From an uncultured Prevotellaceae bacterium (GTDB lineage Bacteria > Bacteroidota > Bacteroidia > Bacteroidales > Bacteroidaceae): DNA of 64,000 nucleotides. The translations under genes and the position numbers were made by a program. The DNA lies in the NCBI GenBank assembly GCA_900318115.1, contig ONJJ01000004.1, forward strand, positions 1 through 64,000, written 5' to 3'. Positions 28,507 to 59,544 of this stretch are shown here, piece after piece. The notes under the pieces are model-generated. The model was not told the DNA's origin. It searched no databases and worked only from the letters and a program-made list of their open reading frames with translations. Position 1 is the stretch's first letter. The number at the start of each line of letters is the position of its first letter.

Positions 28507-28546
28507 AGGGAGATTCGCGCAAATATGCGCGACACCCAACCGAGGG
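28507..28546. repeat. Palindromic element A, copy 1 (intergenic)
   Basis: Forty bases containing the palindrome CGCGCAAATATGCGCG (28516-28531) followed by ACACCCAACCGAGGG. They match 59411-59450 with two differences and a variant inverted copy at about 51311-51350. This copy lies between mutL and trpS. Confidence 0.85.
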
Positions 28547-28548
28547 AA

Positions 28549-28613
28549 GAGAGGGGGCGGGAAGCCCGAGGAGAGGGGGCGGGAAGCCCGAGGAGAGAGG
28601 GCGGAAGGCCGAG
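28549..28613. repeat. 22-base G-rich tandem repeat (3 units)
   Basis: GAGAGGGGGCGGGAAGCCCGAG is repeated exactly at 28549-28570 and 28571-28592, with a 21-base variant at 28593-28613, directly beside element A. It lies between the mutL stop codon and trpS. Confidence 0.85.
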
Positions 28614-28617
28614 GGAT

Positions 28618-30543
28618 TTATTTGAAGAGGCGGTCGATGGTGTCCTGCGGGAGGACTGCTTGTATGATATGACCGTCGGGGGTGTGGACGGGGTCAGTGG
28701 TGGCGGCGAGCTGGCGCAGGAGGTCTTCCTGCTCCACGGGGCTGAGGAGTTGGCCTACAGGGATGGCAGCAGCGCGGGCCAGGGCCAGCGCCAAGCGCCC
28801 ATGGACGGCCTCGGAGGGAAGTGTGCCGCGATCGGCTGCGGCAGCCAACAGGTCCTGAAGCAGCTGCTGCGGATCGAGACCTTCGAGACCAGAGGGGATG
28901 CCGAGGATGCTGATAGTGCCGCCACCAAGGTCACTGAGGTCGAAACCCAGAGACTGAAGGTCGGACTGCACGGCAACAAGGGTGGTGGCGTCGGTGGCTG
29001 AAAGCTTGACGACATCGGGGAAGAGCAAACGCTGAGAGGGCAACGAGGAGGAAGCGGACTGCGCCAGATAGCGGTCATAGAGGACACGTATGTGGGCACG
29101 GTGCTGGTCGATGAAGAGCAGCCCCTCCTCGGTGGAAGAGAGGAGGTATTGTCCCCGATACTGAGCGAGAGAGGAGGTGGCAAAGGTGGAGGCGTCGGGG
29201 TCGAAAGCAGAGCCGCCTGGGTCCAAAGCGGGAAAACCGCCTTCCACCAATCCCGATGAAGGGACGGAAGAACGGGACGCGGCGGAGAGGCCATCGTAAA
29301 GGGATTCCCAACCTGACGGTACGGAGGAATGGGAGGAGGGGATGGCAGAGCCCGAGGAGAAGGGTGCTGGACCCGAAGAGGGTACAGCATGACCCGACGC
29401 GGAGTCGAAGGAACGGGAGGAGGGAGCAAAGGGATCGTAGGTGGGATCCACCTGAACCACAGGCTGGCGCGGCGCCGAGGTGGAGGGGTCCAAGGGGTTG
29501 AAGACGGGAATATCCGTGGGACGTCCTTCAGTATCGAAGTCTATGGAGGGAACGGCAGCAAAGCGGCCGAGAGCCTCGCGTACGGCAGCCAGGAGGATTT
29601 GCCAGATGGCCTGCTCGTTCTCGAACTTTATTTCGGTCTTGGTAGGATGGATATTGACATCAATCTCAGCAGGATTAACATCGAAGTAGAGGAAATAGGG
29701 CACCTGCTCGTCGGAGGGAATGAGCTGTGAGAAGGCTTCCAGGACGGCACGGTGGAAATAGGGATGCCGCATATAGCGGTTGTTGACGAAGAAGTACTGC
29801 TGTGCGCCACGCTTGCGCGAGGACTCGGGTGTGCCGATGAAGCCGTGGATGGTGACCATCGGAGTCTGGACCTCCACCGTAAGCAGCTTGTCGGCCAGCC
29901 GCGACCCGAAGACAGCTGCGATGCGCCCCTTCAGGCTGGAAGGTGTCAGGTTCAGGAGGGTGGTGCCATTGGAGGTGAGGGTGAAGGCGATGTCTGGATG
30001 TACGAGCACTATGCGCTCCAACTCCGATGAGATATTGGAGAGTTCGGTGTTGTTGGATTTGAGGAACTTACGGCGTGCGGGTACATTGAAGAAGAGGTTC
30101 TTGACGAGGAAGTTGGCCCCGACAGGGCATGCCACAGGTTCCTGAGATACGACATGAGAGCCCTCGAGGATCAGATGTGTCCCCAGTTCCTGCTCGGCAG
30201 TCCGCGTCAGCAGTTCCACCTGAGCCACAGCAGCGATGGAAGGCAGCGCCTCGCCACGGAAGCCCATGGTCGTGAGCGTGAAGAGATCGGCGGCCTGACG
30301 TATCTTGCTGGTGGCGTGACGTTCGAAAGCCAGACGAGCATCGGTCTCACTCATTCCACAGCCATCGTCAATCACCTGCAGGCTGGTGCGACCGGCATCA
30401 ATAGCAATAACTTCTATTCGGCGAGCACCCGCATCCACGGCATTCTCCACCAGTTCCTTGACCATGGAGGCAGGACGCTGGATGACTTCGCCGGCGGCTA
30501 TCTGATTGGCGACACTATCGGGAAGGAGTTGAATGAGGTCCAT
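28618..30543 (-). CDS. mutL: DNA mismatch repair protein MutL
   Basis: MutL links MutS mismatch recognition to strand removal. The N-terminal GHKL ATPase is clear: QLLPDSVANQIAAGEVIQRP, then ELVENAVDAGA, DDGCGM and TMGFRGEALPSI. A Ser/Pro/Ala-rich linker of about 110 residues (about 345-455) precedes the C-terminal dimerisation domain. That domain has DQHRAHIRVLYDRY near residue 475, where endonuclease-active MutL proteins have DQHA-x2-E-x4-E. Both glutamates are absent, so nicking activity is doubtful. The 641-residue length is normal. Confidence 0.96.
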   Translation of the reverse strand: MDLIQLLPDSVANQIAAGEVIQRPASMVKELVENAVDAGARRIEVIAIDAGRTSLQVIDDGCGMSETDARLAFERHATSKIRQAADLFTLTTMGFRGEALPSIAAVAQVELLTRTAEQELGTHLILEGSHVVSQEPVACPVGANFLVKNLFFNVPARRKFLKSNNTELSNISSELERIVLVHPDIAFTLTSNGTTLLNLTPSSLKGRIAAVFGSRLADKLLTVEVQTPMVTIHGFIGTPESSRKRGAQQYFFVNNRYMRHPYFHRAVLEAFSQLIPSDEQVPYFLYFDVNPAEIDVNIHPTKTEIKFENEQAIWQILLAAVREALGRFAAVPSIDFDTEGRPTDIPVFNPLDPSTSAPRQPVVQVDPTYDPFAPSSRSFDSASGHAVPSSGPAPFSSGSAIPSSHSSVPSGWESLYDGLSAASRSSVPSSGLVEGGFPALDPGGSAFDPDASTFATSSLAQYRGQYLLSSTEEGLLFIDQHRAHIRVLYDRYLAQSASSSLPSQRLLFPDVVKLSATDATTLVAVQSDLQSLGFDLSDLGGGTISILGIPSGLEGLDPQQLLQDLLAAAADRGTLPSEAVHGRLALALARAAAIPVGQLLSPVEQEDLLRQLAATTDPVHTPDGHIIQAVLPQDTIDRLFK

Positions 30544-30655
30544 TTTGGGGGACGAGCGGAGTTCGTAGTTTTCGGTTTATAGTTTTGCTCGGCGCTTGCG
30601 ACCCTTCACATTTGAAGTATGTTTCAAGGGAGCGGGCGAGGCCGATGTGTGGGAT

Positions 30656-30952
30656 TCAGAAACGGAAGGATCCGGTCATGAGGTAGTGCCAGAGGATGAG
30701 CAGAACGACAATGATGGCAATGGCGACACCGGGGTGCAGCCGTCTGCGGTCGGGGTCTGCCTTGCGGAGGTTCTGGGCGAACTTGCCGCGATAGGATTCG
30801 ATATCGGGCATATACTCGGGCTTTTCGCCCTTAGCAATCTGCTCCTCACGCTTGGCCTCAGCGACAAGACGATCGAGTTTATCCTTGCGTTCGGAGGTGT
30901 AGATGTGGACGCCACGGAAACGACGTGGACTGCGGGTGGAGAAGAGGGACAT
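30656..30952 (-). CDS. Small conserved membrane protein of unknown function
   Basis: This 98-residue protein has a charged, Arg/Lys/Glu-rich N-terminal part (MSLFSTRSPRRFRGVHIYTS onward). One C-terminal transmembrane helix covers about residues 74-92 (HPGVAIAIIVVLLILWHYLM). The topology fits a tail-anchored inner-membrane protein facing the cytoplasm. It sits between the OstA-like gene and mutL, a position where Bacteroidales genomes often have a small protein. I do not know its function. Confidence 0.75.
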   Translation of the reverse strand: MSLFSTRSPRRFRGVHIYTSERKDKLDRLVAEAKREEQIAKGEKPEYMPDIESYRGKFAQNLRKADPDRRRLHPGVAIAIIVVLLILWHYLMTGSFRF

Positions 30953-30957
30953 ATATG

Positions 30958-31009
30958 AATGAGAAATGAGAAATGAAAAATGAAAAATGAGAAATGAGAG
31001 AAAGGGAGG
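30958..31009. repeat. ATGAGAAATGAAAA simple repeat
   Basis: Short units of ATGAGAA and ATGAAAA are repeated about seven times between the OstA-like gene and the small membrane protein gene. It is similar in style to the GTGAAAAGTGAAA array at 19081-19160. Confidence 0.7.
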
Positions 31010-31025
31010 TGGTGGGGATGAGGGG

Positions 31026-33035
31026 CTACTGCATCTTCAAAGCTTTCTGATTGGCACCTCCGGGTGGTCCTGCTTTCTTGCTTGGCATATTGGACTTGGG
31101 CTTGGCATGTTGGACAGAAGCCTTGAGCTCGGTGCCTTCTTTCTTCGGGCGCCAATTGAAGATGTCATCCTTGTTCAGGGGACGGACATAGTCAAACCAT
31201 TGGAAATTATCGAGATATCGGACGCTGGGCTGTACGAGCGCAAGGGGATGCAGACAGCCATCAACCTGGCCGATGAACTTAATCTGGTCCAACTTATTCT
31301 TGGCCATGAACAGCTGTAGGAGAGTGCCTTCAGCATGGAGCAAGCCAATCATCAGGCTGTCCGAGTCATAGGGAAAGTAATTCACCAAGACATTACCCTC
31401 GACGATGGTGCGGTCCATCTGTCCCTTGACGAAGAAACTGCGCATAAGTGCACCTGTGACCTGATTATAGCACATGGAATCTATGCGCTCAACGGAGAGG
31501 GCTTGGCGGATGACGTGGGTGCTATCAACGGTGGAGTCATTGACCCAAGCCTTGATTTCCTCGCCCAAAAGCTGTTGGCCGTTTTGCCAGAGAATGGGAT
31601 CCTTGTACATGGTCATGCAGGAATCCTTGGAGATGAACACCAAGGAGTCACAGACGGCCTGAATATCACGGCGATAGGCACGGACATGATAGTAGGCACG
31701 AATCTCACGCCAGACGGAGTCGGCGGGAGCGGGAGAAGCTGTAAGGGTATCTTTCGCAGCGGAGGGGGCGGAGGGAGGAGGGAGGGAGGAGGTGGAGGGG
31801 GCAGCGAGCGGGGCCGGGATGACGGAGGCGGTGTCGGCGGGAAAACCGCCGACCACTCGACCCTTGGCAAGGGAATCTGCGGGGAGGAAGGCGGAATCTG
31901 CGGAGACGGAAGCGATGGGGAGGGAGGCAGAATCTGCAGGGAGGGAAGCGATGGGGAGGGAGGCAGAATCTGCAGGGAGGGAAGCGATGGGGAGGGAGGC
32001 GGAGGAGGCGCGAAGGGAGGAAGCGGAGGGGAGGGAATCGGCGGGAATCGTGTCGGGCTCCAAAAAGTAAGTGAACAGCTTGAAGGTGTCTGCGTGAACG
32101 TAGAAGGTGTCGCGTTGGGAATAATCTATGCAGACGGCACTGTCGGAAGCTTCGGCATAGCCGAGAGAGTCACTGTAGAGGACGTAGTTGCCTCGGAGTT
32201 CATTGCGATTGTCGCGGTCGATGTAGATGACGCGGCCATAGGCCTTGGAGAGTGTGCTGTCGGACTGGTAGTAAAGAGAATCGCCCTCGATGCTGACACC
32301 TTTGTTGCTGACAATGGAACGATCAAGCAGGTAGGCACGTTCACCACGGGTATCATAGGTGCCATTCTCGCTGTAGATATGGTTGTCACCGTTGTCGATA
32401 TTCGAGGGACCAACGATACGTGCAAAGCCGGAGCCGGTGTTGTAGTGCAGTGTGTCGGAGATAAGGGTGGTCTTTGGACTCTTGAGGTCAACGTTGTAGT
32501 TGAACACGGCTTCGCGAGTGGGGGGGCTGTACTGCCCCCACTCACTCTCGAGAGTGTTGTCACCATCGACCATGCGACCACCATTGAAGAAATAGCCGAG
32601 TTCGTAGAGACGGTCATAGTCCAGGGAGTCGCAGTAGAGGCGCATCTTGTTGTGCGTCAGGATAACGTTATAGCGAGCTCTGGCGAGCTGGTCGGAGCCG
32701 TCGTAGAAGAGGACGTCGGAGACAAGTGTCAGCGTGTCGCCCTGATTCATGTGGACATTGCCAAAGGCATCGAAGGAGTTGGATTGCTGATAGTAGAGTG
32801 CGCTGTCGCAGGTGAGGATGACATCGTCGTGACGAAAGCGGACGTTTCCCACCAGGATCTGGGCATCACGATTGATGCGCTGGTTGAAGTAGAGTTCGTC
32901 GGAATGGAGCAGATGAATCAACGAGCCCTTCTGCCGAGGCTTCTGATTGCCTCGGCGCGCGGGCGGCGCTGCCACGATAAAGACAGCCACCGATGCCACG
33001 ATCAGCGAAAGTAAGTAGCGCGATTTCAATAGCAA
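31026..33035 (-). CDS. Large OstA/LptA-like periplasmic protein
   Basis: The 669-residue protein has an N-terminal signal-like helix (MLLKSRYLLSLIVASVAVFI). Repeated OstA/LptA-fold beta segments follow (HSDELYFNQRINRDAQILVG, GNVHMNQGDTLTLVSDVLFY, LISDTLHYNTGSG). The fold carries lipopolysaccharide or lipooligosaccharide across the periplasm. A low-complexity linker at about residues 335-435, rich in Ser/Ala/Pro/Asp, contains three 36-base repeats encoding SASLPIASLPAD. A second OstA-like segment (WREIRAYYHVRAYRRDIQAV) follows. The start is a TTG at 33035, 9 bases after the stop of the upstream surA-like gene; a TTG two codons later is also possible. It is probably translated in one operon with the two isomerases. 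Confidence 0.82.
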   Translation of the reverse strand: MLLKSRYLLSLIVASVAVFIVAAPPARRGNQKPRQKGSLIHLLHSDELYFNQRINRDAQILVGNVRFRHDDVILTCDSALYYQQSNSFDAFGNVHMNQGDTLTLVSDVLFYDGSDQLARARYNVILTHNKMRLYCDSLDYDRLYELGYFFNGGRMVDGDNTLESEWGQYSPPTREAVFNYNVDLKSPKTTLISDTLHYNTGSGFARIVGPSNIDNGDNHIYSENGTYDTRGERAYLLDRSIVSNKGVSIEGDSLYYQSDSTLSKAYGRVIYIDRDNRNELRGNYVLYSDSLGYAEASDSAVCIDYSQRDTFYVHADTFKLFTYFLEPDTIPADSLPSASSLRASSASLPIASLPADSASLPIASLPADSASLPIASVSADSAFLPADSLAKGRVVGGFPADTASVIPAPLAAPSTSSLPPPSAPSAAKDTLTASPAPADSVWREIRAYYHVRAYRRDIQAVCDSLVFISKDSCMTMYKDPILWQNGQQLLGEEIKAWVNDSTVDSTHVIRQALSVERIDSMCYNQVTGALMRSFFVKGQMDRTIVEGNVLVNYFPYDSDSLMIGLLHAEGTLLQLFMAKNKLDQIKFIGQVDGCLHPLALVQPSVRYLDNFQWFDYVRPLNKDDIFNWRPKKEGTELKASVQHAKPKSNMPSKKAGPPGGANQKALKMQ
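31890..31997. repeat. 36-base tandem repeat (3 units) inside the OstA-like gene
   Basis: Units at 31890-31925, 31926-31961 and 31962-31997. The last two are identical. Each encodes the 12-residue unit SASLPIASLPAD, or a close variant, in the interdomain linker. Confidence 0.88.
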
Positions 33036-33044
33036 TCGTTATCT

Positions 33045-34409
33045 TTAGTCCTTGACCCAACCAGGGTACTGGAAGTCGCATTGCTGCCAGTCGGGATTTA
33101 TGCGCACGTAGGTGCTACGCTGCTTCTCTCGGATCCATTTCTGGATGAACTCCTCGGAACGGCGGTCCTGCACGATTTGTTTGAGAATCTGGAAATCCTC
33201 GGTAATCGTGGCGGTGTGAGAGGGGATGCGGCTCTTGAGTTTAACGACAGCGCACTGTATCTTGCCAGCCTTGTCCATCATCTGGAACGGCTTAGAGATT
33301 TCACCAACCTCCATTCCCTCGACCACACGGGCAATCTCCGTAGGCAGTTCAGCCATACGGAAACGTGAAGTCCGCATACGTTCGCCGGTAGCCGGATTCG
33401 CTGTGACGTTGAACATCAGGCCCCGGTTGTTGCGCGAATCCTTGTCATCAGAAAGCAGACTTGCAGCATCCTCGAAGGTGAACTTTTCAGCTTTGATGTC
33501 CAAGACGATAGAGTCCAGACGAGCCAGCCCTGCCTGCACATCCTGATCGTCCACATGCACGCGTTTAAGAATATGGCGGAGCTTGAGCTTGTCGCCACGC
33601 TTGTCCACAAGCTGAATGATGTGGTAGCCGTACTGCGACTCCACTATCTTCGAGACTTTCTTGGGATCGGTGAGGCTCCAGGCCACGTTGGCAAAGGCGG
33701 GGTCAAGGTCCATCTTGCTCATGTAGTCCATCTCACCACCCTGGCGCGCGGACTCGGTGTCGTCACTGTACATACGCGCCAGCACAGAGAAGGTCTGCGT
33801 GCCGCCGTTGATCTGCTCGGTGTAGTCGCGCAGCAGTCCCTTGATACGGTCGATTTCCTCCTGGCGCACCTTGGGATGCTCTGCCAGCAGTTCCACCTCC
33901 ACCTGCGTGGGAATCTGGGGCAGCGAGTCCTCGGGGAAGTCCTTGAAGAAGTGACGCACCTCAGCCGGAGTCACCTTGATGTCCTTGGTCAGATGGGTAC
34001 GCACCTCGCTCATTATCTGATTAGCACGTATGAGGTCAAACGTCTCTTCGCGGATTTGCGAGAGCGTCATGCCACGGTATTCCTCCAACTTCTCCTTGGA
34101 GCCCGCTTCCTGCACCCACTGATTAATAAACATCTCCACACGACGGTTGATGTTCTCTGCCGGCACATCGATGGAGTCTATCTTTGCCTGATGAAGGAAG
34201 AGTTTCTGCAGAGCCAGGTTCTCTGGAATGGTGCAGTAAGGATTACCGCTTACGCGCTGCATCTGCTGGCGGGTCTTCTCCACATCGCTGCGGAAGATGG
34301 CCTCATCGCCCACGACCCAGACGACTTCGTCGATGACATTGTTCAGCTGGGCAGAGGCTGTCAGATGAAGCCCCACCAGAACCGCTGCAAAAAGGTATTT
34401 GAGTTTCAT
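33045..34409 (-). CDS. SurA-like periplasmic peptidyl-prolyl isomerase/chaperone
   Basis: This 454-residue exported protein (signal peptide MKLKYLFAAVLVGLHLTASA) has a SurA-type N-terminal chaperone region (NNVIDEVVWVVGDEAIFRSD). Two parvulin-type segments follow: ARMYSDDTESARQGGEMDYM with SQYGYHIIQLVDKRGD, then a more divergent LRHILKRVHVDDQDV. SurA proteins escort unfolded outer-membrane proteins through the periplasm. It starts 2 bases after the upstream parvulin gene and is followed 9 bases later by the OstA-like gene. Confidence 0.92.
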   Translation of the reverse strand: MKLKYLFAAVLVGLHLTASAQLNNVIDEVVWVVGDEAIFRSDVEKTRQQMQRVSGNPYCTIPENLALQKLFLHQAKIDSIDVPAENINRRVEMFINQWVQEAGSKEKLEEYRGMTLSQIREETFDLIRANQIMSEVRTHLTKDIKVTPAEVRHFFKDFPEDSLPQIPTQVEVELLAEHPKVRQEEIDRIKGLLRDYTEQINGGTQTFSVLARMYSDDTESARQGGEMDYMSKMDLDPAFANVAWSLTDPKKVSKIVESQYGYHIIQLVDKRGDKLKLRHILKRVHVDDQDVQAGLARLDSIVLDIKAEKFTFEDAASLLSDDKDSRNNRGLMFNVTANPATGERMRTSRFRMAELPTEIARVVEGMEVGEISKPFQMMDKAGKIQCAVVKLKSRIPSHTATITEDFQILKQIVQDRRSEEFIQKWIREKQRSTYVRINPDWQQCDFQYPGWVKD

Positions 34410-34411
34410 TT

Positions 34412-35851: not shown

Positions 35852-35887
35852 CTTTTTTGCCTTGGTTACAAATTCAATCTTAATCTA

Positions 35888-37506
<1,619 letters not shown>

Positions 37507-37537
37507 AAGGTATTTAAGCATCGAAAAACGCGATGAA

Positions 37538-49932: not shown

Positions 49933-49944
49933 AAAAACATCATA

Positions 49945-49975: not shown

Positions 49976-50008
49976 CTACTTTCAACTCATAAATTTCAGC
50001 CCACTCCC

Positions 50009-50926
50009 GTGCCCCTAACCCTTCCCGACCGACTTCCAGCCATCGACCTCCTGAAGCAGGAGAACATCTTCGTGATGGGAACCTCACGCGCCACGTCGCA
50101 GGACATCCGTCCTCTGCGCATCGTGGTGCTGAATCTCATGCCCATCAAAATCACGACCGAGACAGACCTCATCCGCGTGCTATCCAACACGCCGCTGCAG
50201 CTCGAGCTCTCGTTCATGAAAATCAAGAGTCATACCTCCAAGAACACCCCCGTGGAGCACATGCGGGCATTCTATCATGACTTCGAGCTGCTGCGCCATC
50301 AGAAGTTCGACGGCATGATCATCACCGGAGCACCCGTGGAGCACCTCGCCTTCGAGGATGTCAACTATTGGGAAGAGATGCAGGAAATCTTCTCCTGGGC
50401 ACGCACCCATGTGACCTCCACCCTCTACATCTGCTGGGCAGCGCAGGCAGGTCTCTATTATCACTACGGAGTGCCCAAGTATCCACTGCCCGAGAAGAAA
50501 TTCGGCATCTTCGCCCAGCGCATCGCCAATCCCCTGCTTCCCATCTTCCGTGGATTCGATGACATCTTCCAGATGCCCCACAGCCGCCATACCGAAGTGC
50601 GTCGCGAGGACATCGCAGCAGTAGATGGGCTGAGCATCATCGCCGAGTCAGACGAGTCGGGTGTCAGCATCGTCATGGCACGTGGCGGACGCGAGTTCTT
50701 CATCACCGGACATCTCGAATACTCGCCGCTCACCCTCGACACCGAGTACCGCCGCGACCTCGCCAAGGGACTGCCCATCCAGATGCCGCAGCACTACTAC
50801 CGCAACGACAATCCGGAAGAAGGTCCCCTCGTCACTTGGCGCGCGCACGCCAACCTCCTCTTCACCAACTGGCTGAACTACTACGTCTATCAGGAAACAC
50901 CCTACGATATCGATGAGATCCATTGA
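50009..50926 (+). CDS. metA: Homoserine O-acyltransferase MetA (acetyl-CoA type predicted)
   Basis: MetA acylates homoserine at the entry to methionine synthesis. The 305-residue protein starts with a GTG codon: MPLTLPDRLPAIDLLKQENI. The catalytic cysteine is Cys142 in STLYICWAAQAGLYYHYG. The His in APHSRHTEVR-type PHSRHTEVR and the Glu in GHLEYS complete the catalytic set. Residue 111 is Glu (ITGAPVEHLAFEDV). In characterised MetA proteins Glu111 favours acetyl-CoA, whereas Gly111 favours succinyl-CoA, so O-acetylhomoserine is the likely product despite the usual succinyltransferase annotation. It ends 14 bases inside the next gene's start region (overlap with 50913). Confidence 0.93.
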   Translation: MPLTLPDRLPAIDLLKQENIFVMGTSRATSQDIRPLRIVVLNLMPIKITTETDLIRVLSNTPLQLELSFMKIKSHTSKNTPVEHMRAFYHDFELLRHQKFDGMIITGAPVEHLAFEDVNYWEEMQEIFSWARTHVTSTLYICWAAQAGLYYHYGVPKYPLPEKKFGIFAQRIANPLLPIFRGFDDIFQMPHSRHTEVRREDIAAVDGLSIIAESDESGVSIVMARGGREFFITGHLEYSPLTLDTEYRRDLAKGLPIQMPQHYYRNDNPEEGPLVTWRAHANLLFTNWLNYYVYQETPYDIDEIH

Positions 50927-53897
50927 GCTCCTTGCCCCCGCCCGCAACCTGGAATGCGGTCTCGAAGCCATCCGCCACGGAGCAGACGCCGTGTACATCG
51001 GCGCACCCCGCTTCGGAGCACGTGCTGCTGCCGGCAACAGCATCGGGGACATCGCTCAACTCGTGGACTACGCCCACCTCTTCGGCGCACGCATCTACGT
51101 CACCCTCAACACCCTCCTCTACGACGAGGAACTGCCCGCCGCGCAAGCACTCATCGACGACCTCGCCGCCATCCACGTGGACGCTCTCATCACCCAGGAT
51201 CCACGCATCCTCCCCCCATCTGCTCCCTCCTCTCCCTCCTCCTCTTTCCCCTCCTCTTCCTCTTCCCCCTCTGAGGCTTCCTCTTCCTCCTCCTCCTCTT
51301 TCCCCTCCAAGGCCTGCGGTCGGGTGGCGCACATATTTGTGCGCTCTCCTCTCCCCCTCCACTCCTCCACACAGATGGACAACCGCACCCTCGCCGACGT
51401 CCTTGCCCGTCAGGCCGCAGGCTACGAGCAAGTGGTCCTGGCTCGCGAGCTCTCGCTGGACGACATTCGCGCCATCCATGCCGCCGTGCCCTCCATGCCG
51501 CTCGAGGCCTTTGTCCACGGCGCCCTCTGCGTCAGCTACAGCGGACGCTGCTATGCCTCGGAGTATTGTTTCGGACGCAGTGCCAACCGTGGAGAGTGCG
51601 CCCAGTTCTGCCGCCTGCCCTTCGACCTCCTCGACGAGGATGGCCGCGTGGTCACCGTGCCCGAGAACGCCTCGCCTGGAGTTCCGCACGTTGCCCGCTC
51701 CCTGCGCCAGCGCCACCTCCTCTCGCTCCGCGACATGAATCGCTCTGCTGACCTCGAGGCGATGATGGATGCCGGCATCAGCAGTTTCAAGATCGAAGGA
51801 CGCCTCAAGGACGTCAGCTACGTCAAGAACCTCACCGCCTACTACCGCCAGCGCATCGACGCCATCCTCGCCCGCCGCCCGGAGGACTACTGCCGCTCGA
51901 GTTTCGGAAGAAGCGTCATCACCTTCACCCCCAATCCCGCCAAATCCTTCAACCGCGGATTCACCTCCTACTTCCTCCACGAGCGCACCACCGACCTCGC
52001 CTGCCATGCCACTCCCAAGTCCATCGGCGAACCAGTGGGCATCGTCAAGGATATCATCCGCAGCAATCACCCCGCTCGCAGCCAGAACGCCGCCTCCATC
52101 ACCGTCGCCGGCAGCGCCTCCTTCTCCAACGGCGATGGTCTCTGCTTCTTCGACTCCAGCGGCCACCTCGTCGGCTTCCGCGTGAACCGCGTCGATCAGC
52201 AAGGTCGCCTCTATCCCTCCACCTTGCCCGAAGGACTGCACAAGGGCACCCGCCTCTATCGCAACTACGATGCAGCCTTCGAGCGCGAACTCTCCCGCCC
52301 CACCGCCGATCGCCGTCTGGCCGTCCGCTGGCTCTTGGAGGAAGTGCCTGCGCCCTCTCCCACAGCCATGGAGTCTGCGCCGTCCGATGAGCGTTTCCTC
52401 CCCGGTTTCCGCCTCACACTCACCTCGGAATCCGGGTGCACCATATCCCGCTTCTTCCCCCATCCCCACGAGGCAGCTCGCACTCCGCAGGCTGAGCCCA
52501 TCCGCCGCCAGCTCCTCCGTCTGGGCGACACCCCCCTCACGTGTAGCGAGGATGACATCGACATCCGCCTCTCTGCCGACTACTTCATTCCTGCCTCCAC
52601 TCTTGCCGACTGGCGCCGCCAGCTCACGGAGGAACTGGGAGAAAGAGGCAGCAGAGCCACCACCATCCACTCCCATCAGGAAGCGGAGCTCACCAATTCA
52701 ATAGAAAAAGATCGCACCGCGCAGCCAACTCCCCTCCCTGACGGAAGGGATATGGGGGTGGGTCTTTCTCCCCTCCCTGACGAGAGAGGCACGAAGGAGG
52801 GTCTCCTTCCCTCCTCCCTCATGACTTGCCGCTACTGCCTGCGCCACGCCATCGGTCAGTGCCTCCGCGAGCACCCTTCGCTGCGCGGCCCCCTCTCTCT
52901 GCGGCTTGCCGACGGACGCCGTTTCCCCTTGCGCTTCGACTGCCAGCGCTGCGAGATGCACGTGTTGCGCACGCTGCTCCTGTGCCTCCTTTTCCTCTTT
53001 GGCGTCCACGCCTCCCCCCTGCATGCTGCCGAGACAGACCGCCCCTACAGCGTGGGTTACAACTTCCGCGTCCATGCAGACAGCCTCCTGCTGCAGGAAG
53101 ACCGCCCCATGCACTGGTGCCAAGGCGTAGCCCAGAGCAGCGACAGCCTCTGGGTCTTCGGCGACGACCACCTCGTCGTTGCTGCCATCACCATCATCCC
53201 CGAGGACTGCGTGGATAGCGTCTGGGTGAAGGTGGCCCGCGACCAAGCCACCATGGGCTGGACCCACGAGAGTGACCTCCTCGCCGCCGTATCGCCCGAC
53301 GACCCCATCAGTCAGTTCATCCGCATCTTCTCTGCCCACCATCTGCCGTGGTTCCTGGCATTCATCACTGTCGCCAGCCTCGCCATCGGCGTGCGCCACC
53401 TGCGTCGCCGCCACCTCCCCCGGTTCTACGACCTCCCCAGCGCCTACCCCACCCTGCTCAGTTCTACGCTTGCCGTGGCCACCACCACCTACGCCCACAT
53501 CCAGCACTACCTGCCCGAGCAGTGGGTCCACTTCTACTTCCATCCCACGCTGAACCCTCTGGCCCAGCCAGGCGAGCTCTGTCTGTTTCTCCTCTGCGTG
53601 TGGTTGCTGCTGCTGCTCTCCATCGCCGTGGCCGATGCCGCTTTCAGCCAGCTGCGCAGCATTGCCGCCGTAGCCTACCTGGCGACGTTGCTTGCCGTCT
53701 GCATCCTCATCTATCTCCTGCTCAGTCTGGCTTCGCAGCTGAGCATCTACCTCGCCTACGCACTTTGTGCGCTCTACATTCTCTCCACCCTCATCTATTA
53801 CTTCACCCACGTCCGTGCCCACTACCTCTGCGGCCGCTGCGGAGCCAAGATGCGGCAGAAAGGCGTATGCCCCCGCTGCGGAGCAGTCAATGATTGA
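50913..53897 (+). CDS. Fusion of a U32-family protein with a zinc-ribbon membrane protein
   Basis: One uninterrupted 994-residue frame joins two proteins that are normally separate. Residues 1-684 are a U32 protein (RlhA/TrhP-like, linked to RNA hydroxylation). It has MRSIELLAPARNLECGLEAI, the U32 signature EAFVHGALCVSYSGRCYAS near 197, clustered cysteines (YCFGRSANRGECAQFC), and a C-terminal FDCQRCEMHVL. From about 685 a new hydrophobic segment (RTLLLCLLFLFGVHASPLHA) leads a periplasmic SH3-like part (VWVKVARDQATMGWTHES). Several transmembrane helices follow, and the last is a CxxC-CxxC zinc ribbon (LCGRCGAKM, CPRCGAVN). An internal ATG at 52956 could start the second part alone. Two low-complexity insertions interrupt the U32 part: residues about 99-146 (Ser-rich, including element A) and about 592-637. 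The start overlaps metA. Confidence 0.85.
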   Translation: MRSIELLAPARNLECGLEAIRHGADAVYIGAPRFGARAAAGNSIGDIAQLVDYAHLFGARIYVTLNTLLYDEELPAAQALIDDLAAIHVDALITQDPRILPPSAPSSPSSSFPSSSSSPSEASSSSSSSFPSKACGRVAHIFVRSPLPLHSSTQMDNRTLADVLARQAAGYEQVVLARELSLDDIRAIHAAVPSMPLEAFVHGALCVSYSGRCYASEYCFGRSANRGECAQFCRLPFDLLDEDGRVVTVPENASPGVPHVARSLRQRHLLSLRDMNRSADLEAMMDAGISSFKIEGRLKDVSYVKNLTAYYRQRIDAILARRPEDYCRSSFGRSVITFTPNPAKSFNRGFTSYFLHERTTDLACHATPKSIGEPVGIVKDIIRSNHPARSQNAASITVAGSASFSNGDGLCFFDSSGHLVGFRVNRVDQQGRLYPSTLPEGLHKGTRLYRNYDAAFERELSRPTADRRLAVRWLLEEVPAPSPTAMESAPSDERFLPGFRLTLTSESGCTISRFFPHPHEAARTPQAEPIRRQLLRLGDTPLTCSEDDIDIRLSADYFIPASTLADWRRQLTEELGERGSRATTIHSHQEAELTNSIEKDRTAQPTPLPDGRDMGVGLSPLPDERGTKEGLLPSSLMTCRYCLRHAIGQCLREHPSLRGPLSLRLADGRRFPLRFDCQRCEMHVLRTLLLCLLFLFGVHASPLHAAETDRPYSVGYNFRVHADSLLLQEDRPMHWCQGVAQSSDSLWVFGDDHLVVAAITIIPEDCVDSVWVKVARDQATMGWTHESDLLAAVSPDDPISQFIRIFSAHHLPWFLAFITVASLAIGVRHLRRRHLPRFYDLPSAYPTLLSSTLAVATTTYAHIQHYLPEQWVHFYFHPTLNPLAQPGELCLFLLCVWLLLLLSIAVADAAFSQLRSIAAVAYLATLLAVCILIYLLLSLASQLSIYLAYALCALYILSTLIYYFTHVRAHYLCGRCGAKMRQKGVCPRCGAVND
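51311..51350. repeat. Palindromic element A, copy 3 (inside the U32 gene, inverted)
   Basis: GGCCTGCGGTCGGGTG is followed by the palindrome GCGCACATATTTGTGCGC (51327-51344) and TCTCCT. Relative to copies at 28507 and 59411, read on the other strand, the flank GGTtGGGTG and loop TATT are kept, while both stem arms changed together. The bases are translated as ACGRVAHIFVRSP within the U32 barrel region. Confidence 0.75.
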
Positions 53898-53913
53898 TTG
53901 CAAGTCGAATTTT

Positions 53914-53943
53914 CCAATTGTAAGATTGTAAGATTGTAAGATT
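53914..53943. repeat. 30-base GTAAGATT repeat, copy 1
   Basis: CCAATTGTAAGATTGTAAGA followed by further TTGTAAGATT is exactly repeated, in inverted orientation, at 61629-61658. Here it lies 16 bases after the U32-fusion stop codon and 30 bases before the MBOAT gene. Confidence 0.88.
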
Positions 53944-53973
53944 AGCAAATCCATAAATCCGTAAATACCCCTC

Positions 53974-55443
53974 ATGTCCTTCACCTCCCTTCAGTTTCTG
54001 TTCTTTCTCCCGCTGGTCTTCAGCCTCTACTGGATGCTTCGTCGCAGTGTGCGGTGGCAGAATCTGCTGTTGGTGGTCGCCAGCTATGTCTTCTATGGCT
54101 GGTGGGACTGGCGCTTCCTGGGCCTGATAGCGCTGACCACCGCCGCCAGCTTTGCCAGCGGTCTGCTGCTGGAATCCTACGAAGGGCATGAGCGGCGTCG
54201 CCGCTGGATCACGTCCTCCAACATCGCTCTGAACCTGGGCATCCTCGCCCTCTTCAAGTACTACAATTTCTTCGCCGACAACTTCGCCGCGCTACTGCTG
54301 GCGCTGGGACTCCACGCGGACCTGCCCACGCTGCGCCTCATCCTTCCCGTGGGCATCTCGTTCTACACGTTCCAAGCCCTCAGCTACACCATCGACGTCC
54401 ATCGTCGGCAGTTGCGCGCCACGCGCGATGCCGTGGCCTTCTTCGCCTACATCTCCTTCTTCCCACAGCTGGTGGCTGGTCCCATCGAGCGCGCCACGCA
54501 CCTGTTGCCGCAGATGTTGCGCGCGCGTACCTTTAAATATGAAGCTGCCGTCGATGGTCTGCGCCAGATGCTTTGGGGCTTCGCCAAGAAGATGCTGGTG
54601 GCGGACAGCTGCGCCCTGGCCGTGGACATCATCTGGCAGTCGCCCGCCGAGCAGAGCGCGCTGGTGCTGGCCGTGGGTGCCGTGCTCTTCAGCATCCAGA
54701 TCTACGGCGACTTCTCGGGCTACAGCGACATCGCCGTGGGCTGCGCCCGCCTCTTCGGCATCCAGCTGATGCAGAATTTCCGCACTCCCTACTTCGCCAC
54801 CTCCGTCCGCGACTTCTGGCGCCGCTGGCACATCTCGCTGATGACATGGCTTCGGGACTACGTCTATATCCCCCTCGGCGGCAACCGCTGTTCTCCTCTG
54901 CGCCACACGCTGAACACCCTCACCACCTTCCTCCTGAGCGGACTCTGGCACGGTGCCGCCTGGACCTACGTCCTCTGGGGCCTGTACCACGGAGTCCTCG
55001 TCAGCATCGAGAAAGCCCTAAACTCTAAACTCTCCGCTCGACTTCTAGTCGCTCATTCGAGCTTGCGAGTCTTGAGAACTCCAAACTACTCTAAACTCTA
55101 CACTCTAAACTCTACACTCCTCACCTTCCCGCTCGTCACGTTCGGCTGGATCCTCTTCCGCGCACCCGACCTCAGCTCGTTCTGCGCCTACGCCAGCGGC
55201 CTCACACACCTCTCCACCCTCGCCGCCTTCTCCACCCTGACCATGGGCAAGACCGCCCTGCTCTGGAGTGCGGCGCTGATGGTTATCGAGTGGCTGCAGC
55301 GCCACCGCACCCACGCGCTCGACCTCCCCGCCTGCGGCATCCTGCGCCTGCGCGCCGTCCGCTGGACTATCTACTACGCGCTGCTGGCGCTGCTGCTCTT
55401 CTGCCACGCCGACGCCCACAACTTCATCTACTTCCAATTCTGA
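53974..55443 (+). CDS. MBOAT-family membrane O-acyltransferase (AlgI/DltB-like)
   Basis: The 489-residue polytopic membrane protein transfers acyl groups, probably acetyl, to an extracellular glycan. It has about ten hydrophobic segments and the MBOAT core: NLGILALFKYYNFFADNF, ISFFPQLVAGPIERA, DFWRRWHISLMTWLRDYVYI and the catalytic histidine region FLLSGLWHGAAWTYVLWGLY. The partner SGNH gene starts only 5 bases after its stop, the usual acyltransferase-pair arrangement. Residues about 347-382 are an inserted low-complexity loop (NSKLSARLLVAHSSLR onward) encoded by CTAAACTC-type repeats plus a small palindrome (55018-55120). The loop falls between transmembrane segments. Confidence 0.9.
   Translation: MSFTSLQFLFFLPLVFSLYWMLRRSVRWQNLLLVVASYVFYGWWDWRFLGLIALTTAASFASGLLLESYEGHERRRRWITSSNIALNLGILALFKYYNFFADNFAALLLALGLHADLPTLRLILPVGISFYTFQALSYTIDVHRRQLRATRDAVAFFAYISFFPQLVAGPIERATHLLPQMLRARTFKYEAAVDGLRQMLWGFAKKMLVADSCALAVDIIWQSPAEQSALVLAVGAVLFSIQIYGDFSGYSDIAVGCARLFGIQLMQNFRTPYFATSVRDFWRRWHISLMTWLRDYVYIPLGGNRCSPLRHTLNTLTTFLLSGLWHGAAWTYVLWGLYHGVLVSIEKALNSKLSARLLVAHSSLRVLRTPNYSKLYTLNSTLLTFPLVTFGWILFRAPDLSSFCAYASGLTHLSTLAAFSTLTMGKTALLWSAALMVIEWLQRHRTHALDLPACGILRLRAVRWTIYYALLALLLFCHADAHNFIYFQF
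55018..55120. repeat. CTAAACTC simple repeat with internal palindrome inside the MBOAT gene
   Basis: Units such as CTAAACTCTAAACTC and CTCTAAACTCTACACTC flank a palindrome CGACTTCTAGTCG (55039-55051), whose loop TCT equals that of element B copy 3. The frame is kept open and encodes a loop absent from the MBOAT core. Confidence 0.75.
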
Positions 55444-55448
55444 AAGCC

Positions 55449-56417
55449 ATGAGCCCCACAGACATACATCCGCAGTCCGAGCTGTCGTCGCAGGCGGCCT
55501 CCACCCTCAAAGTCAGGGAGTCGGCATGGCGCCTCTTCCTCCGCCGCCTCGCGCTCTTCCTGCTGCCGCTGCTGCTGCTTGCCGCCGCGACGGAACTCTA
55601 TGTGCGCAGCCTCCCCAACAGCTACCGCATGAAAGCCGAGATGATGCAGCGCATGGAAGACAGCGTGGAGGTGATGATCCTCGGCAACAGCCACGCCTAC
55701 AGCGGCATCCGCCCCGAGCTCATCCCCGGCTGCGCCGTCAACCTCGCCAACGTCTCGCAGACGCTGGACCTCGACCTGCTGCTGCTGGAGCACTATGCTC
55801 CACGCAGCCCGCGTCTGCGCGTTGTCGTCCTGCCGCTGGACAACAGCAACCTCTTCGACCAGCCCATGCAGCAGACCGACGAGTGGTTCCGCTGCGCCTA
55901 CTACCGCCGCTACATGCACCTTGGCGCCTACTACCGCCCGCGCTACTGGCTGGAGCTCTTCCACTTCCAGAGCATGCGCGGCAAGATCCGGAAATGGCGA
56001 CAGCAGCGCCAGCCCGACTGCACCGCGCTGGGATGGGACACCGACAACAGCCTCCGCCATCGCGCCGCAGACTGGAACACAGGCCAAGTCGATCGCGTGC
56101 TGCAGCGCCACATCTGCCACGACTGGGAACAAGCCTCCGCCAATCAGGCAACGCTACTGCACATCGCCCGCTACTGCCGCGAGCACCACCTGCGCCTCAT
56201 GCTCGTGGCCACCCCCGTCTATCCCGCCTACGCCGCAGGCATCCCAGCCTCGCAGCGCCGTTTCCTCGCTGCCACGCGCCTTGCTGCCAGGCAGGCGGGT
56301 GCCACCGTCCTCGACTTCTCCGCGGACACCACTTTCTGCGACCCCGACTTCTTCGACCCCGACCATCTCTCGCACGAAGGAGCTGCGAAGTTCACCCGTC
56401 TGCTGCCAATCAAGTGA
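55449..56417 (+). CDS. SGNH-hydrolase-like partner of the MBOAT acyltransferase
   Basis: The 322-residue protein has a single N-terminal membrane anchor at about residues 30-50 (LFLRRLALFLLPLLLLAAAT). An extracytoplasmic SGNH-like domain follows: the Ser block is MILGNSHAYSGIRPELIPG and the Asp-His block is DPDHLSHEGAAKF near the C-terminus. Pairs of MBOAT with DltD/AlgJ/PatB-type SGNH proteins carry out O-acetylation of surface polysaccharides, so it likely completes acyl transfer on the outer face. The ATG at 55449 lies 5 bases after the MBOAT stop; the frame is open further back but overlaps MBOAT. Target glycan is unknown. Confidence 0.85.
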   Translation: MSPTDIHPQSELSSQAASTLKVRESAWRLFLRRLALFLLPLLLLAAATELYVRSLPNSYRMKAEMMQRMEDSVEVMILGNSHAYSGIRPELIPGCAVNLANVSQTLDLDLLLLEHYAPRSPRLRVVVLPLDNSNLFDQPMQQTDEWFRCAYYRRYMHLGAYYRPRYWLELFHFQSMRGKIRKWRQQRQPDCTALGWDTDNSLRHRAADWNTGQVDRVLQRHICHDWEQASANQATLLHIARYCREHHLRLMLVATPVYPAYAAGIPASQRRFLAATRLAARQAGATVLDFSADTTFCDPDFFDPDHLSHEGAAKFTRLLPIK

Positions 56418-56482
56418 TTATCTCAGAACGATCCTCCGGATTGAGGTCTATCTCGGCATGAGATTCGCCCTCCCCCCCCGAA

Positions 56483-56520
56483 CAAAAAAATTGCGACTCG
56501 CATCACTGCGACTCGCAATT
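56483..56520 (-). terminator. Intrinsic terminator of the nucleotidyltransferase gene
   Basis: On the minus strand ATTGCGAGTCGC and GCGAGTCGCAAT arms pair with one G-G mismatch and are followed by T7. It lies about 130 bases after the gene ending at 56650. The region between holds no gene. Confidence 0.75.
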
Positions 56521-56649
56521 CAATTTGGAATTCCAGGAATCTCACTCCCCTTTACTGCGGGAAGAGGATTCCACCTATCTATCAAACTATGTTAATATTT
56601 GGTATGGATAAAGGATCCAAAATTTGCATTTTTTCTCTCGCACACGGCA

Positions 56650-57561
56650 TCAGAAGAGAGGCGAGGGATACACGCCCTCGTCCACCAGCTGCTGGATGCG
56701 CTCCACGGTGCCGGGACGGTCGGCGGCATAGGTCACGCCGAACCACTTCGACGTCGTATCGAGCACCTTCACGGTGGCCGTGCCCTCGTTGATGAGCTTG
56801 TCCACCATCAGGGGGATGAAGAACTCAGCCTTCAGGTTCTCCATGTTCTTGGGATTGGAGAGGAACTCCTTGAAGTACTCCTCGCTGTACTTGAAGTAGT
56901 CGGGAGTGAAGCCCCACATGTTCATGCTCACGGGGACGTTCTCGCCGCCCACGGGCTTCCATTCGCCGTCTTCCTTGTAGCAGATCTCGCCGTCGATGCG
57001 CTCGATTTCGGTGCGCTCCACCACGTCGGTGAGGTTGCCCTGGGCATCCTTGCCGCATACGCCGCGGGCCACGCTGCCGTTCTCCGAGAGGGTGTTGCCC
57101 ACGCGGAAGCCCACCATGGCGTACTTACCCGTGCTGCCCTCGGGCAGCTCAGAGAGGAACTTGCCGATGGTCATGAAGGCGTCGCGGTTGTAGAAGTCGT
57201 CGCAGTTGATGACGCAGAAGGGCTCCTTGATGACGTCCTTGCCCATCAGCACGGCGTGGTTCGTGCCCCAGGGCTTCACACGTCCTTCGGGAACGCTGAA
57301 TCCTTCGGGCAGGTCGTCCAGGGCCTGGAAGCAGAGTTCGCAGGGGATGTGGCCCTCGTATTTCTTCAGTATCTGATTGCGGAACTGGTCTTCGAAGTCG
57401 CGGCGGATGACCCAGACGATCTTGCCGAAGCCAGCCTGGATGGCATCGTAGATGGAGTAGTCCATGATGGTTTCACCATTGGGGCCCAGCGCATCGAGCT
57501 GCTTCAGCCCACCGTAACGGCTGCCCATACCGGCAGCAAGGAGGAATAGAGTAGGTTTCAT
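56650..57561 (-). CDS. Sugar nucleotidyltransferase
   Basis: The 303-residue cytoplasmic protein has the nucleotide-binding signature LLAAGMGSRYGGLKQLDALG at residues 7-26, typical of GT-A-like sugar-1-phosphate nucleotidyltransferases. The metal-binding Asp pair is in FCVINCDDFYNRDAFM near 117-132. The region YEGHIPCELCFQALDDLPEG and the C-terminal about 60 residues do not match RmlA or GalU well. It may belong to the family often annotated as nucleotidyltransferase of unknown sugar specificity. The ATG at 57561 is preceded by a promoter box at 57603-57610. Confidence 0.85.
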   Translation of the reverse strand: MKPTLFLLAAGMGSRYGGLKQLDALGPNGETIMDYSIYDAIQAGFGKIVWVIRRDFEDQFRNQILKKYEGHIPCELCFQALDDLPEGFSVPEGRVKPWGTNHAVLMGKDVIKEPFCVINCDDFYNRDAFMTIGKFLSELPEGSTGKYAMVGFRVGNTLSENGSVARGVCGKDAQGNLTDVVERTEIERIDGEICYKEDGEWKPVGGENVPVSMNMWGFTPDYFKYSEEYFKEFLSNPKNMENLKAEFFIPLMVDKLINEGTATVKVLDTTSKWFGVTYAADRPGTVERIQQLVDEGVYPSPLF

Positions 57562-57602
57562 TTCTGGATTGTTTCTTGGGGTTATTTAGTTAATTCGTGC
57601 CG

Positions 57603-57610
57603 CAAAGTTA
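57603..57610 (-). promoter_or_regulatory. -7 box upstream of the nucleotidyltransferase gene
   Basis: The minus strand reads TAACTTTG at 57603-57610, about 40 bases before the ATG. The -33 element is weak. Confidence 0.5.
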
Positions 57611-57619
57611 CGTATTATT

Positions 57620-57915
57620 TTTCATTCGCGCACTATAAAAGGCACAAAAAATCACCTGCTGTGCATAAAAAGCATACTTTTCGGCATCCTTTCCGCTCAT
57701 AAAAGCCAAACGGCCCAATGAAGGGAAGCCTGTTAAGGAAGTCTGTTGCAAATCCTAATGGAGATAGCCGCGAGGAAGTGAGGAGAACGCTTCTCACGAA
57801 TAATCAGACATCATAACCTCACTCATGATATGCAAAGCGGTATCTTTGCAATGCAAAAGAACCATTGGCGGTCGGCAGAGGGGATGTTTTAGTCGGAAGT
57901 AGGCAGGTGCTCTAT
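57620..57915. other. Intergenic region without a recognisable gene
   Basis: I see no convincing gene between the nucleotidyltransferase promoter and the sulfatase stop codon at 57916. A plus-strand TATCTTTG at 57841-57848 lies within the imperfect palindrome GCAAAGCGGTATCTTTGC, but no plus-strand gene follows. It could be a decayed promoter, an antisense start into the sulfatase gene, or chance. Confidence 0.5.
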
Positions 57916-59544
57916 TTATTTCAGGGCTTCCTGCTGGCGGTTTTCTTGGTAGTGGTCGCCTACGAGCTGGAGGAAGCGGCGGCGGAATTTGCGGAGGAGA
58001 CGGGGATGGGTGGCGGTGATGTCGAGGTGCTGGGAGGGGTCTGCCTGGAGGTCGTAGAGGGTGTAGTCGGAGACTACTCCGAGCTCGTTGCCTGTGGCGT
58101 TGCGCCGGGCTCCTCGATAGGGAGGGATGAGGGCGTAGCGGCCGCATCGGTAGGCGAGTCGTCCGGCGGCCTCGACGATCATCTCGCGGCGCGCACGGCG
58201 GCTCTTGCCGAGGAAGGTGGAGAGGAGGTTCTCGGAGTCGAGTCCTGCGGGCACGGGCTGGCGGAGCATGGCGGCGAGGGAGGCGAGGAGGTCTTGCTGG
58301 GAGACGAGGGCGTCGGAGACGAGCGGGCGGATGTGGCCGCGCCAGTAGATGAAGAAAGGCACGCGCGTGCCGGCGTCGAAGAGGCTGTACTTGCCTCCGC
58401 GGAGGCCTCCCATGGGGTCGTGGAGGGGTGCGGATTCGCGGGCTCCGTCCTGGTAGCCGTCGTCGAGGACGGGTCCGTTGTCGGAGCTGAAGATGATGAT
58501 GGTGTTGTCGAGGAGTCCTTCGCGCTCGAGTTTCTGGATGAGCTGTCCCACGCACCAGTCTGCCTCGAGGATGACGTCGCCGCGCGGTCCGAGGGCTGTC
58601 CTGCCGGCGAAGCGCGGGTCAGGGACGCGTGGCACGTGGGGCTGGTGGAGTCCGTAGTAGAGGAAGAAGGGCTGGTGCTTGTTGGCGTCGATGAAGGCGT
58701 TGCAACGGTCGAGGAAATACTGCGCCATCTGGTCGTCCTGCCATCGTGCGGCGTGGCCTCCTCGCATGAATCCTATGCGTCCGATGCCGTTGATGACGGT
58801 GTTGTCGTGGCCGTGGGAGGAGGGCATGCGTACGAGCTCGGGATTGTCGCGCAGGGTGGGTTCTCCGGGGAAGTTGTGTTCGTAGCTGACTTCGATGGGG
58901 TCGTCGGGGTCGAGTCCTACGACGCGTCCGTTCTCGACATATACGGTGGGCACTCGGTCCACGGTGGCCGCGATGATGCACGAGTAGTCGAATCCTATCT
59001 CTCGCGCTCCGGGGCGGATGACGTCGTTCCAGTTGATCTTGCCGCGGCCCATGCCGAGGTGCCACTTGCCGACGGCGGCGGTGGCGTAGCCTGCGTGCTG
59101 GAACATGCGCGGGAGGGTGAACTGCTGTGGATCGACGATGAGTGGTGCGTCGCCAGGTAGGATGTGGGCGTCCTTGTTCTTCCAGGGGTACATGCCGGTG
59201 AAGAGTCCGTAGCGGCTGGGTGTGCTGGTGGCAGAGGTGGCGTGGCCGTCGGTGAAGCAAACGCCTCCGCGGGCGAGGCGGTCGATGTTGGGTGTGCGGA
59301 TGGTGGTCTGGCCGTAGGCGCTGACGTCGCCGTAGCCGAGGTCATCGGCGAGGATGAGTACGACGTTCGGGCGCTGGGAGTCCTGCGCGGCAGCGGCTGC
59401 GGCGGGGGAGGAGGGAGTTTCGCGCAAATATGCGCGACACCCAACCGAAGGTGAGAGGGGGCAGCCGGCGGCGAGTGCGAGTGCCGGGGGGCAGCCGGCG
59501 GCGAGTGCGAGTGCCGCGAGGGTCAATGTTTTCTGGTGTTCCAT
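57916..59544 (-). CDS. Ser-type sulfatase, probably exported
   Basis: The 542-residue sulfatase shows NVVLILADDLGYGDVSAYGQ (metal site) and the formylglycine motif region TSATSTPSRYGLFTGMYPW. The modified residue is Ser (S-T-P-S-R), so activation would need an anaerobic sulfatase-maturating enzyme. GKWHLGMG and FFLYYGLHQPHVP follow, and IIIFSSDNGPVLDDG holds later metal ligands. The N-terminus is odd: two copies of ALALAAGCP (30-base DNA repeat) precede element A (SVGCRAYLRET) and an Ala run before the catalytic domain starts near residue 55. It may still serve as a signal sequence. The gene overlaps the upstream sialidase-fold gene by 22 bases, suggesting translational coupling. Substrate is unknown. 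Confidence 0.88.
   Translation of the reverse strand: MEHQKTLTLAALALAAGCPPALALAAGCPLSPSVGCRAYLRETPSSPAAAAAAQDSQRPNVVLILADDLGYGDVSAYGQTTIRTPNIDRLARGGVCFTDGHATSATSTPSRYGLFTGMYPWKNKDAHILPGDAPLIVDPQQFTLPRMFQHAGYATAAVGKWHLGMGRGKINWNDVIRPGAREIGFDYSCIIAATVDRVPTVYVENGRVVGLDPDDPIEVSYEHNFPGEPTLRDNPELVRMPSSHGHDNTVINGIGRIGFMRGGHAARWQDDQMAQYFLDRCNAFIDANKHQPFFLYYGLHQPHVPRVPDPRFAGRTALGPRGDVILEADWCVGQLIQKLEREGLLDNTIIIFSSDNGPVLDDGYQDGARESAPLHDPMGGLRGGKYSLFDAGTRVPFFIYWRGHIRPLVSDALVSQQDLLASLAAMLRQPVPAGLDSENLLSTFLGKSRRARREMIVEAAGRLAYRCGRYALIPPYRGARRNATGNELGVVSDYTLYDLQADPSQHLDITATHPRLLRKFRRRFLQLVGDHYQENRQQEALK
59411..59450. repeat. Palindromic element A, copy 2 (inside the sulfatase gene)
   Basis: Forty bases matching 28507-28546 with two differences, including the palindrome CGCGCAAATATGCGCG at 59420-59435. 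On the minus strand it is read as PSVGCRAYLRETP, a different codon frame from the U32 copy. Confidence 0.85.
59461..59520. repeat. 30-base tandem duplication in the sulfatase N-terminus
   Basis: Two 30-base units (59461-59490, 59491-59520), both beginning GCAGCCGGCGGCGAGTGCGA and differing only in the last few bases, encode the doubled ALALAAGCP peptide. Confidence 0.88.

Follow-up and report, generated by a model that had tools for sequence, protein, structure and literature searches.

What REP (repetitive extragenic palindromic) sequences and their REP-associated tyrosine transposases (RAYTs) do for the cell is an old open question, and the origin of bacterial minisatellites is poorly known. 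REPs lying in frame within genes, including inside RAYT genes, have already been described: according to the accessible text of Quentin et al. 2018 (PMC6006769), Bacteroidetes transposases of TnpAY1 subclass 2.4 carry REPs in frame within the transposase gene, between the HuH and Tyr motifs. For the enzymes themselves, excerpts of PMC8266576 indicate that the E. coli RAYT cuts one strand of single-stranded REP at a CT placed 5' or 3' of the hairpin, and that in the Marinomonas enzyme the foot tetranucleotide serves as a guide. Here we analyze element A, a palindromic family met in a 64,000-nucleotide stretch of DNA from an uncultured Prevotellaceae bacterium (assembly GCA_900318115.1, contig ONJJ01000004.1, positions 1 to 64,000 of the forward strand; hereafter the window). 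Element A belongs to the REPs (repetitive palindromes) of REP/RAYT systems, and tandem arrays adjoin it mostly on one side. The explanation that we regard as probable is a RAYT-REP system that acts strand-specifically and thereby gives rise to tandem duplications next to the element.

The sequence-only reading of the window had reported three copies of a palindrome, two of them inside genes in different frames, with compensatory stem changes, and had taken them for a copied element that invades genes in frame in the manner of REPs or Rickettsia palindromic elements (RPEs). All three copies are present, and a refined register fits every one of them: a 9-nucleotide tail (GGTYGGGTG), a 7-nucleotide arm, the loop TATT and a second 7-nucleotide arm. 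Copy 1 (28515-28541, minus strand; 27 nucleotides, with the tail GGTTGGGTG, a 7-bp stem and the TATT loop) is intergenic, flanked on one side by a mutL-like gene and on the other by one for a class I tRNA synthetase, and is co-oriented with both. Copy 2 (59420-59446, minus strand) lies in frame and in sense orientation directly past the apparent signal peptide of a sulfatase open reading frame (ORF; 57916-59544, minus strand), and copy 3 (51318-51344, plus strand) is likewise in frame and sense, in a U32 peptidase ORF of 994 amino acids (50913-53897, plus strand). The two coding copies are indeed translated in different frames, phase 2 in the sulfatase (SVGCRAYLR) and phase 0 in the U32 gene (GRVAHIFVR). 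Two of the copies share the stem TCGCGCA/TGCGCGA and copy 3 has GCGCACA/TGTGCGC; the tails read GGTTGGGTG or GGTCGGGTG. A tandem array, not mentioned in the sequence-only reading, is found on the tail side of all three, 8-11 bp from the tail: three 22-bp units 8 bp off copy 1 (28549-28614), two 30-bp units 11 bp off copy 2 (59457-59516) and, 10 bp off copy 3, an array that codes for a Ser/Pro-rich linker (51225-51308).

The window's own genome, a 3.33-Mb draft in 74 contigs, contains the further copies expected of such a family (GGTYGGGTG-N7-TATT-N7'), of which 33 were examined. A pattern scan allowing up to three mismatches gave 26 matches there and its reversed control 0, and a stem-free pattern of tail and loop, with one mismatch allowed, gave 30 and its control 1. 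This stem-free search matched in 17 of 18 genome entries (two of which are one genome), some matches being due to chance, since the single match in G003 forms no hairpin and the reversed control yielded 0 to 3 per genome. A scan of 84,980 named species, with a pattern that fixed the GCGC stem and with the window's own genome records possibly excluded, returned 48 stretches, all from metagenome-assembled genomes of Bacteroidales whose source labels are goat or buffalo rumen, goat abomasum, or the RUG/RUI series. In one of these relatives, RUG13587, five A copies stand head-to-tail at a spacing of 41-43 bp (L071:2598-2792).

The stem of element A covaries whereas loop and tail stay constant, and the compensation goes far beyond chance. 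Among 63 distinct 27-mers picked from the fetched loci by tail and loop only, 60 keep the full 5-bp inner stem, compared to a mean of 18.5 and a maximum of 27 when the arms were shuffled 1000 times, although covariation is somewhat overstated here because many of the loci were fetched via stem-containing patterns. The pairing cells across these 27-mers amount to 92%, versus 66% after arm shuffling (maximum 73%; 1000 shuffles), and the matches of the stem-free search show the same covariation by eye. Stems are species-specific, for instance AGCCGCA in RGIG8062 and TGCGGCG in RUI080. The distance from tail to loop is 7 nucleotides in 97 of 97 copies, although 5 to 10 were permitted; this set was selected for the tail plus five or more stem base pairs, so that pairing is built in, a bias that the stem-free pattern avoids. 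A short hairpin, many copies and compensatory stem changes are what element A has in common with REPs. At the 5' foot, where REPs have a conserved GT[AG]G tetranucleotide, a subset of the copies reads GGTTGGGTGTAGCGC (GTAG) and the majority GGTG followed by other bases. Element A departs from REPs in not being mainly extragenic, as 22 of the 33 examined copies overlap ORFs. A chance palindrome or a conserved peptide was ruled out by the copy number, the control patterns and the differing frames, with the possible exception of one copy, L298.

The RAYT that the sequence-only reading had suggested seeking was found outside the window: the same genome encodes a cognate A-clade enzyme (G000:C42, L037) with three A copies in its open frame, one of which has a fully changed stem (CGCCGCA/TGCGGCG). 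When the RGIG1607 protein was used as query against 17 genome entries, which correspond to 15 genomes because two pairs are identical, an A-clade RAYT was present in nine of these 15 carriers (60-83% identity, or the query itself). A copies lie inside the ORF in nine of nine, and in both orientations in six by the scan of the ORFs and in eight once the tail-and-stem set and the stem-free search are added, so that these genes show the inverted copies of their own REP that characterize RAYTs. The proteins also show the RAYT fold, with a HuH motif that reads MPDH[LF]H and the catalytic Tyr motif; seven of seven match NCBIfam NF047646 at E 7e-7 or better, the best score of 52 bits being below the family cut-off (80 bits). 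Furthermore, A-clade RAYTs end in a fused DprA-like domain, their C-terminal part being predicted to have the Rossmann-type DprA fold (DprA/SLOG). No publication combining a RAYT with DprA was found, a weak negative because subscription papers lie outside the literature searched.

In the linker of these proteins, the antisense copy is translated as PQIC(G/R)AP in six species and, in another frame, as REYALHPT in RUG11694 and RUG12444, from which we argue that the DNA and not the peptide is kept. Other RAYT clades, as read from the clade listing, hold other palindromes in the same linker. At least one hairpin with a stem of 7 or more occurs in 42 of the 54 delimited RAYT linkers, a count that left out 18 of 72 RAYTs whose linker is not clearly delimited, and the mean number of hairpins per linker is 1.07 versus 0.07 in dinucleotide shuffles. 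The RAYT tree left out ten of 82 ORFs (six same-gene duplicates and four pieces of two interrupted genes).

Tandem arrays were called by Tandem Repeats Finder at a minimum score of 40 and a minimum unit of 5 bp, and were assigned to an element when they ended no more than 50 bp from it. In the own genome, 20 of 26 A copies have an array on the tail side and one of 26 on the other side (3.2-3.4% at random positions). Among A copies of named relatives that lie outside RAYT genes the numbers are 24 and 8 of 45 (null 2.6%), and among copies inside RAYT genes 8 and 1 of 10; element A is polar in its own genome and in two sets of relatives. The sequence of the array unit varies between loci. A second REP family, T (GTG-N5-CGG-TTTTC-CCG), with 24 own-genome matches at no more than one mismatch, has arrays on the tail side in 17 of 31 copies versus 4 of 31 on the other (null 3.4%), and its copy in the window (31833-31856, minus strand; GTG-N5-CGG-TTTTC-CCG-N5) has one on the tail side as well (31872-32045). 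In the minisatellite and REP literature, none of the matches listed, judged by title and start of abstract, dealt with polar arrays; on the same basis, stem-loop or triplex repeats come up in PMC2267715 and PMC4666352. Passive slippage, by which the hairpin and the G-rich tail stall replication and slippage makes the arrays while the RAYT merely spread the element, is possible but doubtful. The C/T-rich flanks on the element strand would suit it, and so would the arrays that adjoin copies in RGIG3623, whose draft is without an A-clade RAYT. However, a near-perfect hairpin can form on either strand, so stalling alone predicts no side preference, whereas the arrays are 20:1 one-sided in the own genome and 17:4 in the T family.

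Orthologous sites bear on the order of events. Among the 16 closest sulfatase orthologues, two (that of the own genome and that of RUG11694) have the insert, and 14 have by reading a short signal peptide without it, which is the clean presence and absence that the sequence-only reading had asked for; in the U32 gene the insertion is older, being common to several congeners and partly eroded. The 30-bp unit beside the sulfatase copy spans host sequence and sequence that accompanies the element elsewhere; it is present twice in the own genome and once in RUG11694, which has the same element. Four more orthologous pairs have the element in common and different array units. In one of these four, L013/L094, the stem is altered on both sides. 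In the inter-domain linker of dihydroxy-acid dehydratase, an array is found in two of two genes that carry an element, which is an A copy in the own genome and a T copy in RUG11694, and in one of 28 that carry none. Similarly, at a site 500-700 nucleotides into the phosphoglycerate mutase domain, arrays are found in three of three element-bearing genes and in 0 of 27 element-free ones; two of these three elements are A copies, and the third is a TTCGT-loop palindrome that itself makes up its array by repetition. Both counts consider the elements at the site that were recognised as REPs, a criterion adopted after the data had been seen, and are stronger than the comparison of any hairpin with arrays, which is weak (Fisher p 0.09 for dehydratase linkers and 0.12 for whole mutase genes). 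Among U32 orthologues, arrays occur in five of seven with an A or T element and in 0 of one without; the element-free U32 gene of G010 has none, nor has the element-free L294 site of the same genome (L044). The comparisons of L002 with L094, neither of which has an array, and at L012, L020, L023 and L292 were uninformative. Because of these sulfatase, paired-orthologue, dehydratase, mutase and U32 comparisons, we favour an order in which the element would have come first and the array later. As regards mutase length, the own-genome protein (L021, G000:C56) has 675 amino acids with in-frame A elements and Ser/Pro-rich arrays, many relatives have about 410, and the frame in RUG11694 has 710.

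The opposite order, with insertion of the element into tolerant linkers at the 3' edge of pre-existing arrays, is unlikely. Of the 20 merged arrays of the window, 16 have neither an A nor a T element, and the arrays of 7-8 bp units by RGIG3623 copies suggest insertion into repeat-rich spacers. Against such a target preference, element-free orthologues are without array at 27 of 28 dehydratase and 27 of 27 mutase sites and at both sites of G010, and orthologues with the same element have different array units.

Most of the ORF-overlapping copies follow the direction of the gene. The 22 in the own genome comprise 21 in ORFs with a Pfam domain and one RAYT; the tail strand is the coding strand in 21 of them, and these sense copies occupy all three phases (14, 4 and 3). 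Two of the 22 (L012 and L297) are probably upstream of the start codon. An additional in-frame sense copy, by reading, is that of L292, in a protein outside the 22 which we take to be RfbD-like. Each of the ten intergenic copies is co-oriented with at least one neighbour gene with a Pfam domain, the second neighbour being convergent at L018 and L020. The T family is sense in 15 of 17 Pfam-supported overlapping ORFs, from 30 T loci fetched. Lagging-strand targeting, known for IS608-like elements, would yield part of this sense bias, many genes being co-directional with the replication fork. The sole antisense copy, L298, is an A-consensus palindrome in a Tex-like S1 domain that may be a coincidence; the region presumably is native Tex protein, and G018 has a possible orthologue of it, a stem variant at C112:14566. 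That element A is an mRNA hairpin whose coding-strand bias reflects selection on transcripts, with mobility old or absent, would agree with these orientations in both families but is the least credible alternative, given the species-specific expansions with their own stems, the presence or absence between close orthologues and the two orientations inside RAYT genes.

In the explanation by a RAYT-REP system, the RAYT, a HUH single-strand DNA transposase fused to a DprA-like domain, would recognise the REP-type hairpin on one strand, as homology suggests. Copies would have been inserted at many sites, often within genes and mostly on the coding strand, a mobility to which the empty orthologous sites point, and the invasion of genes in frame proposed in the sequence-only reading is supported to that extent. 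After insertion, DNA on the tail (5') side would be repeatedly tandem-duplicated, with a new unit per lineage, in agreement with the orthologues at several sites. The likely cause would be that the enzyme nicks the DNA or binds the hairpin strand-specifically on the 5' side, with the RAYT rather than the hairpin alone as driver of the arrays. If the protein, through its DprA-like domain as well, kept hold of a tail-side nick, a 3' end could be exposed that re-anneals upstream and is recopied; the outcome would be one-sided tandem growth, whatever sequence lies there serving as unit, and the product in-frame, fast-changing Ser/Pro/Ala-rich linkers next to many copies.

Several results weigh against this explanation. 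No A-clade RAYT was found in RGIG3623, which has 32 A copies in a draft rated 80% complete, nor in RUI002, RGIG8060, Tb.RUG.125 and G019, and RUG13587 gave a partial RAYT match only (60% over residues 10-121); the genomes are drafts, which may have collapsed repeats and lack some RAYTs. The 41 A copies with other stems have 12 arrays on the tail side and 5 on the other (sign test p 0.14). The seven from the own genome divide 5 versus 1 and the 21 from RUI080 and RGIG8062 3 versus 3, and polarity is absent from the latter two genomes (G094, G095) despite an A RAYT and species-specific A expansions. The element is present without array in the two relatives compared at L014 (L099 and L077) and in two U32 orthologues, where it is A-like. 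In addition, some of the counted arrays are the element itself repeated (e.g. L016, L075, L272), and of 230 other hairpins of the same loci, some of them maybe other REPs, 37 lie within 50 bp of an array on one side or the other, versus 52 of 89 A-like hairpins. Transposition and nicking by the RAYT are deduced, not observed.

Element A suggests itself as a seed of new variable protein linkers. Tentatively, RAYT-DprA and its REPs could be an engine for new tandem repeats, in which the hairpin would designate a place on the coding strand, the enzyme would nick the tail side and recopying would give housekeeping and secreted proteins hypervariable linkers in frame; REPs would thus seed low-complexity regions in these rumen bacteria. 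If the RAYT-REP explanation is right, a domesticated transposase renders coding sequence locally variable with frames unbroken. The orthologous sites with and without arrays, together with the known polarity within the genus, make the function of RAYTs and the origin of minisatellites testable together, and a REP transposase fused to a DprA-like domain offers a new handle on the fate of RAYT products.

Other features of the window deserve mention. The mutL-like gene (28618-30543) has an A element after it and a T-like palindrome inside (29229-29247, minus strand; imperfect stem, no array within 50 bp). The stability of repeats is influenced by mismatch repair. An Rfam scan of the window at the gathering score matched nothing but an abiF RNA away from element A (27256-27291, minus strand; RF03085, 41.8 bits versus a gathering score of 37), and no tRNA link of element A was found. 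At 25459-25498 and 25503-25681, two neighbouring palindromes of the GTACCA-CTGC-TGGTAC type abut a large tandem array and are possibly another REP family with its array. Repeats of 7-8 bp units without a recognised palindrome lie at 53917-53943, 55088-55119 and 61628-61655, and similar ones abut A copies in RGIG3623.

Set against known systems, the DprA-like C-terminal domain on RAYTs, the polarity of the element with its tail-side arrays and the coding-strand bias appear to be new. Like REP/RAYT (TnpAREP) systems and REPtrons, the present one has many short covarying palindromes, a cognate HUH-Tyr transposase, a single palindrome family for each RAYT and inverted pairs at the RAYT gene; unlike them, most copies have the tail GGTYGGGTG and not a plain GT[AG]G foot, about two thirds of the examined copies overlap ORFs, and the DprA-like domain and tail-side tandem arrays are present. 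A-clade RAYTs resemble TnpAY1 subclass 2.4 in their in-frame REPs between the HuH and Tyr motifs, but the accessible text on that subclass gives the HuH motif as NH[IFV]H and no C-terminal extension, compared to DH[LF]H and a DprA-like domain here (PMC6006769). REPINs and tandem REPIN clusters are also RAYT-linked with inverted pairs at the RAYT gene, as far as the consulted portion of PMC3116915 goes; in contrast, A copies outside RAYT genes are mostly single, which does not support a REPIN as the moving unit since its dispersed inverted pair was not met, and the arrays mostly exclude the palindrome, with exceptions such as the five tandem copies of L071. Finally, RPEs and intragenic REPs, in the accessible part of PMC3733652, are likewise palindromes in frame in unrelated genes; RPEs resemble element A in behaviour only, and what sets element A apart from both is an identified cognate RAYT, a coding-strand majority and one-sided flanking arrays.
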